From assembly GCF_009497155.1 (NCBI RefSeq), contig NZ_WINI01000001.1, positions 1,178,001-1,242,000 on the forward strand: a stretch of DNA of 64,000 nucleotides, read 5' to 3'. Positions within the stretch are counted from its first letter, which is position 1. Each line of letters opens with the position of its first letter. Below, one piece after another: positions 5,544-42,629 of this stretch. Below the pieces are notes generated by a model that was not told the DNA's origin, did no database searches, and worked only from the letters and a program-made list of their open reading frames with translations. The stretch is from Glaciimonas soli (GTDB taxonomy: Bacteria; Pseudomonadota; Gammaproteobacteria; Burkholderiales; Burkholderiaceae_D). The translations under genes were made by a program, and so were the position numbers.

Positions 5544-5551
5544 GTCAGTAT

Positions 5552-5728
5552 TAAGTCCCGCCTATGCCGCTTTGCCGGCATCCTGAACCAAGGAGGTTCA
5601 AGTTGGCTACAGTTAGTTCAATTTCGGGTTCATCGGACTAGCGACGATCACGCCCATCAAACGATGTTCCGTAACCGCTGCGTAAAAATGGTTCAAGGAA
5701 TTTTAGCAATGGCGAACAAGGCAGGAGC
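5552..5728 (-). ncRNA. ssrS: 6S RNA
   Basis: 6S RNA binds sigma70 RNA polymerase as a promoter mimic and lowers transcription in stationary phase. Position and sequence agree: it is directly downstream of zapA, as in many proteobacteria. The minus strand contains the typical 3' half GAACCTCCTTGGTTC, then GGATGCCGGC, AAAGCGGCAT and AGGCGGGA. The 5' end TCCTGCC (5726-5720) pairs with GGCGGGA (5562-5556), closing the terminal stem, and TTGTTCGCC near the 5' end resembles the E. coli 5' region. Length is ~177 nt, the normal size. Ends are inferred from the closing stem and the promoter, so each may be off by a few bases. Confidence 0.88.
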
Positions 5729-5732
5729 GCCA

Positions 5733-38436: not shown

Positions 38437-39180
38437 TTAAAACCGCCAGGTCACACCAACACCAAGTTGGTGTGCAACCTCCGCCTCATTCAATCCAAAT
38501 TTAATACCTGCATCAAGATCAACATTCTTCGTCGGCGAGTAGACAAGACCTGTCAAAAAATAAGCAGGGTTGACGGATTGAGCGCGCTCAGAATTACGTG
38601 CAACACCGATATCAGCCGCCACCATCCATTGCTCATTTAGCTGATATGACGCAGCCGTTGACGCATACCACACCGCACGTTGGTTCTCATCCCGATCAAT
38701 TTGCAAATCATAACGATCAGAAGAGATGCCGATATTGGCATTAAATGTCCACGGCGCAGCGTCATAAGAGCCAATCAAAGTCAGCGTAGTGCTAGTACGT
38801 CCATTGCCGTTGCCAAAATGTTGATTACCTGTCGGAAGAATGAGCTCAGGTCTCAATGCAAAACTCATCGCACCCTCTTCGTAAAAGCGCCATTTAGCAC
38901 CAAGCGTCGTATCATTCAGGCCACGTGGCGTTGTATATGTAACGGGAACATTGACATAGACATCCAGTTTATCTGACGCCCCAACAGTGTAAGTGATATT
39001 GCCCTCATGGACACTAGCCCCATCTTGTGATGCCCAGTCAGTGTTTGCTTCCAACTGTTGGTTTCCTGTGCCTTGTGTATTCGTATCATCGGTAACGAAG
39101 GGATGTCCGGCAAAAGCTGCCGGCATCACGAATGTCAGGTATAAGACGACAATGATGTGTGATTTTTTGAATAAAACCAT
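38437..39180 (-). CDS. Outer-membrane beta-barrel protein of the phenol-degradation MetA (transporter) type
   Basis: 247 residues. Signal peptide to AFA (~residue 24), then GHPFVTDDTNTQGTGNQQLE, a strand-rich body with alternating hydrophobic residues, and a C-terminal Phe (GVGVTWRF) as expected for an outer-membrane barrel. The opening block matches the Phenol_MetA_deg-like family, members of which are thought to form channels for hydrophobic compounds. A ribosome-binding site AGAGG precedes the ATG. It follows mgtA on the same strand after 154 bp and faces the enoyl-CoA hydratase gene with a 6-bp gap. Substrate not known. Confidence 0.8.
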   Translation of the reverse strand: MVLFKKSHIIVVLYLTFVMPAAFAGHPFVTDDTNTQGTGNQQLEANTDWASQDGASVHEGNITYTVGASDKLDVYVNVPVTYTTPRGLNDTTLGAKWRFYEEGAMSFALRPELILPTGNQHFGNGNGRTSTTLTLIGSYDAAPWTFNANIGISSDRYDLQIDRDENQRAVWYASTAASYQLNEQWMVAADIGVARNSERAQSVNPAYFLTGLVYSPTKNVDLDAGIKFGLNEAEVAHQLGVGVTWRF

Positions 39181-39334: not shown

Positions 39335-42097
39335 TTACTGCCAGCCGAAGCGCTTGATGTAAAAGGTCTTCATCGCCTGCGTCAGCATCACATAAGCGGC
39401 CAAGATACCTATCAACCATGGGAAATACGATAATGGCAACGCTTCCAATTTAAAGAATCCCGCGAGCGGCCCCATCGGCAAAAATATCCCGATTGCCATG
39501 ACAATCATTGTCATGATGATTAACGGCCACGCAGCGCGACTTTGTAGGAACGGAATTTTTTGAGTACGAATCATGTGCACAATCATCGTCTGCGTTAGTA
39601 AGCCAACCACGAACCAGCCTGATTGGAACAAAGTCTGATTCGCCACTGTATCCGCGTGAAAAACATACCACATGATGACGAAAGTGGTGATATCAAAAAT
39701 AGAGCTAATCGGCCCGAAGAACACCATGAATCGTCCCAAAGAACGCGAATCCCAACGCAATGGCTTCTCCACATCTTCTTTATCCACATTGTCGAACGGG
39801 ATGGCTATTTGTGAAATATCGTAGAGCAAATTCTGCACTAACAGATGCATGGATAGCATAGGCAAGAATGGCAAGAACGCACTGGCAACCAATACCGAGA
39901 ACACGTTACCGAAGTTAGAGCTAGCGGTCATGCGGATATATTTCAGCATGTTGTTAAAGGTTTTACGACCTTCAATCACGCCCTCTTCCAACACCATCAA
40001 ACTCTTTTCCAGCAAAATCAAATCCGCTGCTTCTTTGGCGATATCGACTGCAGTATCTACTGAAATGCCAATATCCGCAGCACGCAACGCAGGCGCATCA
40101 TTGATACCGTCACCCATGAAACCGACTACGTGACCATTGCTGCGTAATGCGCGCACAAGACGTTCTTTATGCAGTGGAGACAGCTTGGCAAACACATTGT
40201 TTTTCTCCGCCAGTATTGCCAGTGCTTCGTCCGACATTTTGTCAAGTTGATGGCCCAACACAACACCCTGCACATCCAGCCCGACATCATGACAAATTTT
40301 TGCTGTCACCAGTTCATTGTCTCCAGTCAGTACTTTGACGGTAACACCATGCCCTGCCAATGCTTTGATCGCTGGCGCAGTAGACTCCTTTGGAGGATCA
40401 AGAAAAGCGATGTAACCAATTAGCGTCAACTCGCCTTCGTCGGCAACGCCATAATTTGCTTTATGGGGAGGAACTTCCTTGGCAGCCACCGCCACTACGC
40501 GCAAACCTTCTTGATTCAGCCCGCGTGTCACTGCTAATACGCGCTGCAACATAGCATCATCTAACGCGACAACGTCGTCACCATCTTGCACATGAGTACA
40601 AATAGAGAGCAGCTCTTCGACTGCACCTTTGCAAATCAACTCATGATGATCTTCACGCTCGGAAACCACCACCGACATGCGGCGACGTTGAAAATCAAAC
40701 GGCACTTCATCAATTTTTTTGTAATCTTGCGCCAGCTTTAATTCCGTCTGCAATTCAACGTGATCAAGTACCGCGCGGTCTAGCAAATTCTTCAGGCCGG
40801 TCTGGTAATAACTGTTCAAATAAGCGAACTTCAGGACATTATCAGAGGCCTGTCCAAACACATCGGTATGACGCTCCAGGCAAATTTTATCCTGTGTCAA
40901 AGTGCCAGTTTTATCTGTACACAATACATCCATCGCACCAAAATTTTGAATGGCATCAAGGCGTTTTACCACCACTTTTTTACGTGCCAATATCACCGCG
41001 CCTTTGGCCAAAGTCGACGTGACAATCATCGGCAGCATTTCTGGCGTCAACCCAACCGCCACCGCCAGTGCAAACAAAAATGCTTCGCTCCAGTCACCTT
41101 TGGTAAAACCATTGATCAACAATACGATCGGCACCATGACCAGGGCAAAGCGAATCAACAACCAACTGACACTATTCACACCTTGCTGAAATGCGGTTGG
41201 CGCGCGATCCGTAGACGTAACGCGTACCGCCAAAGTACCAAAATACGTCTGATTACCTGTCGTCAGCACTACTGCCATAGCTGAACCGGAAACCACATTG
41301 GTACCCATGAAGAGAATGTTATCCAATTCAATTGGATTATCCCCACCCACACCGTCTTGGTTTTCAACAAATTTCTCCACCGGCAGCGATTCACCTGTCA
41401 TCGCCGACTGACTAACGAATAGATCTTTGGCAGAAATGACTCTGCAATCGGCTGGAATCATGTCGCCCGCAGATAGAAAAATCAGATCTCCAGGGACCAG
41501 TTCTTTGATTGGCAGTTCTATTTTATGGGCAGGATTAACGTGAACATTGATTTCAAAATAGCGCCTGGCTTCAGCACTGGCCTCAATCGAATTATCACGT
41601 CGCAGCACTGTTGCGGTATTGCTGACCATCGCTTTCAACTTGTCTGCAGCGCGGTTAGAGCGCCCTTCTTGCACGAAGCGAATCATGGTCGATAGCACCA
41701 CCATAATGCTGATGACGATAGTCGCTTCAATATCATCGGTGACGTAGGAAATAATCGCCAACACAGTAAGCAGTAAGTTGAACGGATTTTTATATGAGTG
41801 CCATAAATCCATCCACCATGGCGACGGCTTCTCATGCGCCACTTCATTGATGCCCACCCGCTCCCGAATTCTTTCGGCTTCAGCGTTGCTTAACCCTTCC
41901 TCATGTGCATGCAGGCGCACTAACACGGCAGGAATATCTTCACGCGATGCGAGCAATAACTCTCGTGACAAATGATCAGGCACAGCGCGCGACAAATTTG
42001 CCGATGAGTTCACATCCGGCATAGCGGTGCGGCGGAATTGGCGAGGCATGCTTTTGCTATGCAAAAATGCGTCAAACAGACTCTTAAATAGATTCAT
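39335..42097 (-). CDS. mgtA: Magnesium-translocating P-type ATPase
   Basis: 920-residue P3B ATPase of the inner membrane that imports Mg2+ at the cost of ATP. The phosphorylated Asp395 is in DVLCTDKTGTLTQDK; other P-type signs are MTGESLPVEKF, KGAVEELLSICTH, LTGDNELVTAKICHDVGLDV and GFMGDGINDAPALRAADIGIS. A ~40-residue N-terminal tail precedes the cation ATPase N-domain. The ATG at 42097 has GGAG 6 nt upstream; an extension to 42151 is not supported. The gene has a long leader with an MgtL-like peptide frame, so Mg2+ control is likely. MgtB differs little in sequence; the MgtA name is by family. Confidence 0.95.
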   Translation of the reverse strand: MNLFKSLFDAFLHSKSMPRQFRRTAMPDVNSSANLSRAVPDHLSRELLLASREDIPAVLVRLHAHEEGLSNAEAERIRERVGINEVAHEKPSPWWMDLWHSYKNPFNLLLTVLAIISYVTDDIEATIVISIMVVLSTMIRFVQEGRSNRAADKLKAMVSNTATVLRRDNSIEASAEARRYFEINVHVNPAHKIELPIKELVPGDLIFLSAGDMIPADCRVISAKDLFVSQSAMTGESLPVEKFVENQDGVGGDNPIELDNILFMGTNVVSGSAMAVVLTTGNQTYFGTLAVRVTSTDRAPTAFQQGVNSVSWLLIRFALVMVPIVLLINGFTKGDWSEAFLFALAVAVGLTPEMLPMIVTSTLAKGAVILARKKVVVKRLDAIQNFGAMDVLCTDKTGTLTQDKICLERHTDVFGQASDNVLKFAYLNSYYQTGLKNLLDRAVLDHVELQTELKLAQDYKKIDEVPFDFQRRRMSVVVSEREDHHELICKGAVEELLSICTHVQDGDDVVALDDAMLQRVLAVTRGLNQEGLRVVAVAAKEVPPHKANYGVADEGELTLIGYIAFLDPPKESTAPAIKALAGHGVTVKVLTGDNELVTAKICHDVGLDVQGVVLGHQLDKMSDEALAILAEKNNVFAKLSPLHKERLVRALRSNGHVVGFMGDGINDAPALRAADIGISVDTAVDIAKEAADLILLEKSLMVLEEGVIEGRKTFNNMLKYIRMTASSNFGNVFSVLVASAFLPFLPMLSMHLLVQNLLYDISQIAIPFDNVDKEDVEKPLRWDSRSLGRFMVFFGPISSIFDITTFVIMWYVFHADTVANQTLFQSGWFVVGLLTQTMIVHMIRTQKIPFLQSRAAWPLIIMTMIVMAIGIFLPMGPLAGFFKLEALPLSYFPWLIGILAAYVMLTQAMKTFYIKRFGWQ

Positions 42098-42593
42098 TTT
42101 TTTCTCCGTATGAACAGCAACAATAAATGCACAGCTAGCTAGCGTAGCCACGTGCGTTGTCTGTTCTATGCGTTATTTATTAGGTGGTGCATGCACCAAT
42201 TGCAGGTACTGGAAAAGTACCAGGCAATGCGTCTTTAGCAGCGGCTAAAAAGCGATATAGGAGCGGGTTCCATATGTATTCCTTAATATTACGCAATGGG
42301 TAATGGACGTAAGACGGCCACGCGTAGGGAACCACTGTGAAACTTGTGATGTCATTGCACACGATGGCATTACTGACTAAAAAACAAGACAGGCAGCAAG
42401 GCGCAACATGCGCGCATAAAACAGCAGAATTTGATTTTGAGTGTCGGAAAAATCCGACCAAGACACCATACCTGTGAAGTCAGGTACGGAGAAGATGAGA
42501 TCCGTGGGCCAGACTACGCAGCGATGACTATCAACAAATAGTTACTACTATCACCAGAACAAGTACCCACAAAGGTCTCCATGAAAACTAAAC
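42098..42593 (-). promoter_or_regulatory. Long structured leader of mgtA
   Basis: The promoter at 42600-42629 places the transcript start near 42593, giving a leader of ~495 nt. It contains the MEPAPISLFSRC frame (42235-42273), then the hairpin GGTACT/AGTACC (loop TTTCC) and the palindrome GGTGCATGCACC before mgtA. Further up are the hairpin GTCGGATTTTTCCGAC and two longer short frames (42514-42582, 22 codons; 42377-42469, 30 codons), neither with a good ribosome-binding site. I did not recognise an M-box or other known Mg2+ riboswitch. Confidence 0.65.
42235..42273 (-). CDS. Candidate MgtL-like leader peptide MEPAPISLFSRC
   Basis: 12 codons, MEPAPISLFSRC, too short for usual gene calling. 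The Shine-Dalgarno AAGGA (42284-42280) lies exactly 6 nt before the ATG. The start matches enterobacterial MgtL (MEPDPTPLP...): Glu2 and Pro at positions 3 and 5 are the same. In that system low Mg2+ destabilises ribosomes at acidic and proline codons, so the peptide is aborted and mgtA is transcribed. The stop is 138 nt before the mgtA ATG, similar in scale to the enterobacterial leader. That this frame is translated and regulatory here is inference. Confidence 0.6.
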   Translation of the reverse strand: MEPAPISLFSRC

Positions 42594-42599
42594 GGGGCG

Positions 42600-42629
42600 A
42601 TTATAATTGGTGCGTTGCGGTAAAGTCAA
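42600..42629 (-). promoter_or_regulatory. Sigma70 promoter of mgtA
   Basis: Minus strand: TTGACT (42629-42624), 18-bp spacer, TATAAT (42605-42600). The only strong promoter found upstream of mgtA. A PhoP-type box was not clearly seen. Confidence 0.75.

Follow-up and report, generated by a model that had tools for sequence, protein, structure and literature searches.

Two putative tandem leader frames, one with an MgtL-like start, upstream of mgtA in Glaciimonas soli

The leader peptide of mgtA, MgtL, is the textbook example of how a ribosome can serve as a Mg2+ meter. The annotated mgtL frame of E. coli K-12 (leader L248) encodes 17 residues and ends 140 nt before mgtA. In E. coli the effect is abolished when both acidic residues of the EPDP motif, Glu2 and Asp4, are mutated at once (PMC11282234), and the Salmonella MgtL contains four prolines (PMC6460261). 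Transcription of the Salmonella mgtCBR operon, which is Mg2+-related and to which mgtC belongs, is governed by mgtP, a leader frame containing proline codons (PMC6460261). For the M. tuberculosis M-box, a conserved small upstream frame is reported together with Rho (PMC12810186).

The window analysed here is a 64-kb stretch of the Glaciimonas soli genome. It carries on its minus strand an mgtA gene (39335..42097) encoding a Mg2+-importing P-type ATPase of 920 amino acids, an assignment based on the open reading frame, on identity to relatives (up to 78% with the best of them) and on plasmid relatives annotated as mgtA. A predicted sigma-70 promoter, TTGACT-18-TATAAT, lies on the same strand at 42600..42629 and matches the consensus at 11 of 12 positions; transcription would start near 42592, giving an mgtA leader of about 495 nt. 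Within this leader only two meaningful frames bear a ribosome-binding site (RBS), a GTG-started frame at 42570-42514 (frame 1) and an ATG-started frame at 42273-42235 (frame 2). The same genome has two further mgtA copies, 70% and 66% identical; neither has the frame 1 element, and a scan of some 800 nt in front of each turned up no MEPxP frame. In the leader of a second mgtA copy (L002 1300-1500, contig C30), TAGTCAGCCCGGTTAAATTAGTGGG ... CCCACTAATTTAACCGGGCTGACTA make up an inverted repeat that spans about 150 nt and resembles a small mobile element. Directly 3' of mgtA in the window, a minus-strand gene (38437-39180) matches Phenol_MetA_deg (PF13557). A similar N-terminus (PMITDDA) is found in the gene between the frame 1 element and mgtA in leader L067, and after the element in L011 and L189, which suggests that a Phenol_MetA_deg-type gene is a recurring partner of mgtA. 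Elsewhere in the window, 6S RNA is matched at 5551-5730 on the minus strand (Rfam RF00013, 56.5 bits).

Frame 2 (42235..42273, minus strand) encodes MEPAPISLFSRC in the codons ATG GAA CCC GCT CCT ATA TCG CTT TTT AGC CGC TGC TAA, and its stop lies 137 nt before the mgtA ATG at 42097. It had been proposed in the initial annotation as a minus-strand leader frame of 12 codons with AAGGA placed 6 nt before its ATG, and the sequence bears out each of these particulars, the RBS lying at 42280..42284 (minus strand). The start Met-Glu-Pro-x-Pro, which the initial annotation equated with that of MgtL (MEPDPTP), is indeed there, with Glu2, Pro3 and Pro5 of the EPDP start, but Asp4 is replaced by Ala, as in an MDPAP frame of Variovorax, and Pro7 and Pro9 are absent. 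Frame 2 retains only Glu2 of the Glu2/Asp4 pair and, of the alternating prolines at positions 3, 5, 7 and 9, only Pro3 and Pro5, two of the four in Salmonella MgtL. When the 495-nt leader was dinucleotide-shuffled 20,000 times, a Shine-Dalgarno sequence, ATG and M[DE]PxP start came together once, a chance of about 5e-5, and a search of both strands of the window revealed no second instance.

A hairpin predicted to span the final codons of frame 2 together with its stop (42229..42253, minus strand) is absent from the initial annotation. The two hairpins it did describe after the stop codon are both recovered on the same strand: GGTACT/AGTACC, as part of a larger predicted stem ATTGC..GGTACT/AGTACC..GCAAT (42199..42228), and a short palindromic hairpin, TGGTGCATGCACCA, with the palindrome GGTGCATGCACC and a 5-bp stem (42185..42198). 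This stretch folds better than its shuffles (z -2.3). Under constrained folding around frame 2, hairpins were lost, and no clear alternative such as stem C took their place.

Conservation of the frame in close relatives, the check which the initial annotation set for itself, gave the opposite result. Frame 2 is missing from the leaders of the nearest mgtA relatives for which leader sequence exists, namely those of a Rhodoferax MAG (L038), a Glaciimonas MAG (KJC.1, L039), G012 and G053, and by that check this counts against this particular frame. Nor is there an MEPxP frame in the examined mgtA leaders of Glaciimonas, Herbaspirillum and Janthinobacterium. The genome of the window and G054 belong to the same genus, and the G054 leader matches that of Glaciimonas immobilis DSM 23240 (L032, L045). 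One further leader (L159, from G035) has a frame, MDPEPYWRLISPPRCR, without a strong RBS and 195 nt before mgtA.

The broader suggestion that MgtL-like leaders extend beyond the Enterobacteriaceae has fared better, drawing on several lineages and on conservation at the peptide level in Comamonadaceae, despite the absence of the window's own frame from its close relatives. In Sapientia aquatica, AGGAG is followed by MEPDPESTMRQ... between mgtC and mgtA. Stenotrophomonas species have MDPDPAGR... or MDPDPSGR... before mgtA, an Acidovorax mgtA leader has MDPDPRRR... and Delftia has MDPDPSRS.... A Variovorax plasmid encodes MDPAPHLRPC... with an intact RBS, 174 nt before mgtA and with Ala4 as in the window. 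The same surveys recovered the expected MDPDPTPHPR... of a Klebsiella copy. The nearest parallels of frame 2 are MEPDP of Sapientia aquatica and MDPAP of Variovorax. In a sample of 125 non-redundant mgtA leaders, RBS-bearing frames with at least four of residues 2-6 being D, E or P numbered 7, several of them related Stenotrophomonas sequences, against 0.42 expected, and 0 of 60 shuffles reached 7. Background rates were taken from the loci themselves, and the 1.55 Mb of non-leader DNA from mgtA-type loci contained no RBS-bearing M[DE]PxP frame of 6-70 codons.

A survey of two genera of Comamonadaceae (Delftia-like G789 and the genus of G1064) identified M-D-P-D-P frames in 14 leaders, 13 of which read MDPDP[SG]RS. 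In these 13 frames codons 2-5 change silently only (pS 0.58, pN 0), whereas codons 9-16 change at nearly equal rates (pS 0.53, pN 0.52), which points to selection for the peptide start M-D-P-D-P. Together this recurrence and codon constraint make the occurrence of putative MgtL-like leader frames before mgtA outside Enterobacteriaceae well supported at the sequence level; frame 2 of the window is a plausible, individually unproven, lineage-specific case. RNAalifold was globally uninformative on the Comamonadaceae MDPDP leaders. Behind the MDPDP frame, a hairpin seems to hide the RBS belonging to another short frame, which reads ATGCAACG... in Comamonadaceae (L249, L250, L265, L267-L275 and L277) and ATGTCCTACAAG... 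in Stenotrophomonas (L100, L105, L106 and L111), and a two-frame relay before mgtA is possible in those leaders.

The best-conserved part of the mgtA leader in the window was overlooked in the initial annotation. This is frame 1 (42514..42570, minus strand), about 240 nt upstream of frame 2, which begins GTG GGT ACT TGT TCT GGT GAT AGT some 22 nt after the predicted transcription start, encodes MGTCSGDSSNYLLIVIAA and ends in TAG. Its RBS, GGAG at 42577..42580 (minus strand), is evident in the sequence and in relatives. Frames of this M[GS]TCS[SG]DS type precede mgtA in Pseudomonas, Herbaspirillum, Glaciimonas, Janthinobacterium, Propionivibrio and others, among them many Burkholderiales. The peptide is conserved, and the frame is kept in 102 distinct elements, with GTG, ATG or TTG as the start, GGAG or GGGG 6-9 nt before it (101 of the 102) and closure always after 15-21 codons, the other two reading frames closing irregularly. 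Silent changes (0.26) exceed replacement changes (0.06), a difference to which RNA structure may contribute. No obvious low-Mg2+ stalling motif is present in frame 1.

The frame 1 element is also found before mgtC (L010, L061 and L078), before the gene of a CorA-like transporter that weakly matches MgtE_N (L196) and before OprB porins (L058 and L195); in L058 and L067, mgtA is next after the first gene behind the element. That Mg2+ transport genes unrelated to one another share the element is an argument for control linked to Mg2+. In L194 the element precedes an ABC transporter permease (BPD_transp_1) which is not obviously a Mg2+ gene. In L260, on a Cupriavidus metallidurans plasmid, and in L058, mgtA is immediately preceded by the gene of an OprB-type carbohydrate porin, hinting at a role for such porins in Mg2+ uptake. 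A variant leader frame in Burkholderiaceae bacterium 16 (L041 4390), MDSCSSWPPAKL, looks like a diverged frame 1. Across 399 genomes of the order, a sequence pattern for frame 1 matched 10 and the reversed control 1; in the class sample the pattern matched the window alone. A covariance model likewise matched the window alone in the 369-genome class sample, which means little with regard to the remaining genomes since only 9 candidates were scored in each.

The RNA behind frame 1 resembles a four-segment attenuator. The region 42440-42586 folds with z -3.5 and includes, on the minus strand, the segment 3:4 hairpin CCGTACCTG...CAGGTATGG (42466..42489), backed by pairing and covariation in relatives, and a further predicted hairpin, GTCGGA/TCCGAC (42443..42459). 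Over 31 aligned relatives, segments 1 (CTTGTTCGAG) and 2 (CTCGGCAAG) are paired in 93.5% of cells with no pair changed on both sides, so that the 1:2 helix, which hardly varies, draws its support from pairing only. Segments 3 and 4 are paired in 92.6% of cells, 8 of 11 pairs having changes on both sides, and the alternative 2:3 helix in 84.9%, with 4 such pairs. Helices 1:2 and 3:4 are mutually exclusive with 2:3, and the frame 1 stop codon coincides with segment 2 or lies close to it. When the window was folded with a ribosome placed at codon 6 as the constraint, the 2:3 helix formed; with the ribosome at the stop, the 3:4 hairpin (42489-42466) formed. A possible hairpin inside frame 1 (ACTAT/ATAGT, 42527..42542, minus strand) is outside the free minimum-energy fold, and in alignments relatives carry different stems at this location; a start-codon hairpin (CCC/GGG) showed no covariation and was dropped.

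Downstream of frame 1, C exceeds G in 94 of 102 leaders compared with 45 of 100 upstream controls, and it does so through most of the length of the window's mgtA leader. No U-run terminator was noticed in the frame 1 leaders, and the combination of C-rich, G-poor sequence with the lack of such a terminator fits Rho. RNAalifold found almost no structure in a mixed MAFFT alignment; splitting off the uniform Pseudomonas/Herbaspirillum-type set resolved it. Rfam covariance models (M-box, Mg_sensor, mgtC_leader and others) gave no leader match at threshold in the window, four related loci and a Pseudomonas leader. An HDV-like match on the opposite strand (E 0.11, below threshold) and an mgtC_leader match to the Pseudomonas frame 1 element (E 0.081, 20.8 bits against a threshold of 48) were taken as chance.

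On balance it seems probable, by a modest degree, that the leader holds two regulatory frames in tandem, frame 2 being an MgtL-type sensor and frame 1, with its mutually exclusive helices, an upstream attenuator of the same logic. The mechanism suggested for frame 2 is drawn by parallel with MgtL, whose acidic-proline start is inefficient at low Mg2+. In low Mg2+, ribosomes would pause at the Glu2-Pro3-x-Pro5 start or drop off there, the hairpin that spans the final codons and the stop would stay undisturbed and transcription would run on into mgtA. With sufficient Mg2+, frame 2 would be read to its stop and the transcript would be exposed to termination, probably Rho-dependent. Each frame would link its translation to what becomes of the nascent transcript, placing one gene under two-step control. 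We infer from sequence that both frames are translated, respond to Mg2+ and involve Rho.

A different view of frame 2, which we consider rather doubtful, is that it is a chance MEPxP and that mgtA of the window is controlled by frame 1 and its attenuator-like RNA alone, as in Herbaspirillum, other Glaciimonas, Janthinobacterium and Pseudomonas. The conservation of frame 1 across these genera and the failure of close relatives to keep frame 2 are in keeping with this, but chance alone is disfavoured by the probability of about 5e-5 from shuffling of the leader and by the recurrence of the motif before mgtA in several lineages, with none in the 1.55 Mb of background. Alternatively, frame 2 may be the decaying remnant of an ancestral arrangement, frame 1 - mgtC - MEPDP frame - mgtA, in which mgtC was lost and MEPDP, no longer needed, became MEPAP. 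Exactly this order is seen in Sapientia aquatica, and Asp4 has been lost in the window. Such decay nevertheless appears unlikely given that the RBS, start, Glu2, Pro3 and Pro5 of frame 2 are all intact, and the intact RBS of the Variovorax MDPAP frame indicates that Ala4 need not mean decay.

The frame 1 element, for its part, is strongly conserved at the nucleotide level (TGTTC, GTGACAGT) and has covarying helices, features expected of an RNA sensor, that is a riboswitch-like fold binding Mg2+ directly, to which the reading frame would be incidental. This is improbable in view of the closure of the frame after 15-21 codons in 102 of 102 elements alongside two irregular frames, the interchange of ATG, GTG and TTG starts and the excess of silent over replacement changes.

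The tandem-frame reading can be set in a wider context. Whether MgtL-like M[DE]P[DA]P frames and the M[GS]TCS[SG]DS attenuator serve as translated Mg2+ sensors in non-enteric beta- and gammaproteobacteria, the window having both in series, is in our judgement evenly balanced. The M[GS]TCS[SG]DS-type element is apparently a leader-peptide attenuator of a new kind, placed before Mg2+ transporters in Pseudomonas and many Burkholderiales, groups in which post-transcriptional control of mgtA seems uncharacterised. No paper on either leader type in these groups was found among the openly licensed literature, the scope within which novelty is provisionally claimed. The papers that were found there describe MgtL in E. 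coli, Salmonella and relatives only, and those naming mgtL together with mgtA seem, by title and abstract, to deal with E. coli, Salmonella and Shigella or with general topics. If the wider reading is true, the attenuator would be shared by mgtA, mgtC and a CorA-like gene as well as OprB porins. The finding of M[DE]P[DA]P frames in Comamonadaceae, in Stenotrophomonas and in Oxalobacteraceae relatives suggests that the MgtL mechanism either is of ancient origin or evolved more than once, and the natural variants among these frames (Ala4, short forms) offer a test of which MgtL residues matter.

A number of parallels can be drawn with the known systems. The M. tuberculosis M-box is likewise reported to be a Mg2+-related leader with RNA structure and an upstream frame, and Rho, involved there, is proposed for the window; the window leader, however, matches no M-box or other Rfam family. 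With mgtP it shares a proline-codon leader frame before Mg2+-related genes, but the sequences are not similar and both genes and organisms are different. As in trp-type amino-acid attenuators, frame 1 is followed by segments pairing as 1:2 with 3:4 or as 2:3, and its stop lies near segment 2. In contrast to these attenuators, frame 1 has no run of codons for a single amino acid, no U-run terminator was noticed and the genes concerned are those of Mg2+ transporters. MgtL differs from frame 2 in length (17 residues against 12) and in Asp4, which is Ala in frame 2; for the A/B-versus-C stem switch of MgtL, the window offers predicted hairpins and no clear alternative structure. The window leader also holds a second, unrelated frame upstream. 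Frame 2 is kept out of the MgtL class because it lacks Pro7 and Pro9, does not resemble MgtL after residue 5 and is not conserved among its close relatives. Despite this, it most likely works like MgtL. The two have in common a short frame with a strong RBS in the mgtA leader, the start Met-Glu-Pro-x-Pro, hairpins after the frame and a similar distance to mgtA, 137 nt in the window and 140 nt in E. coli.
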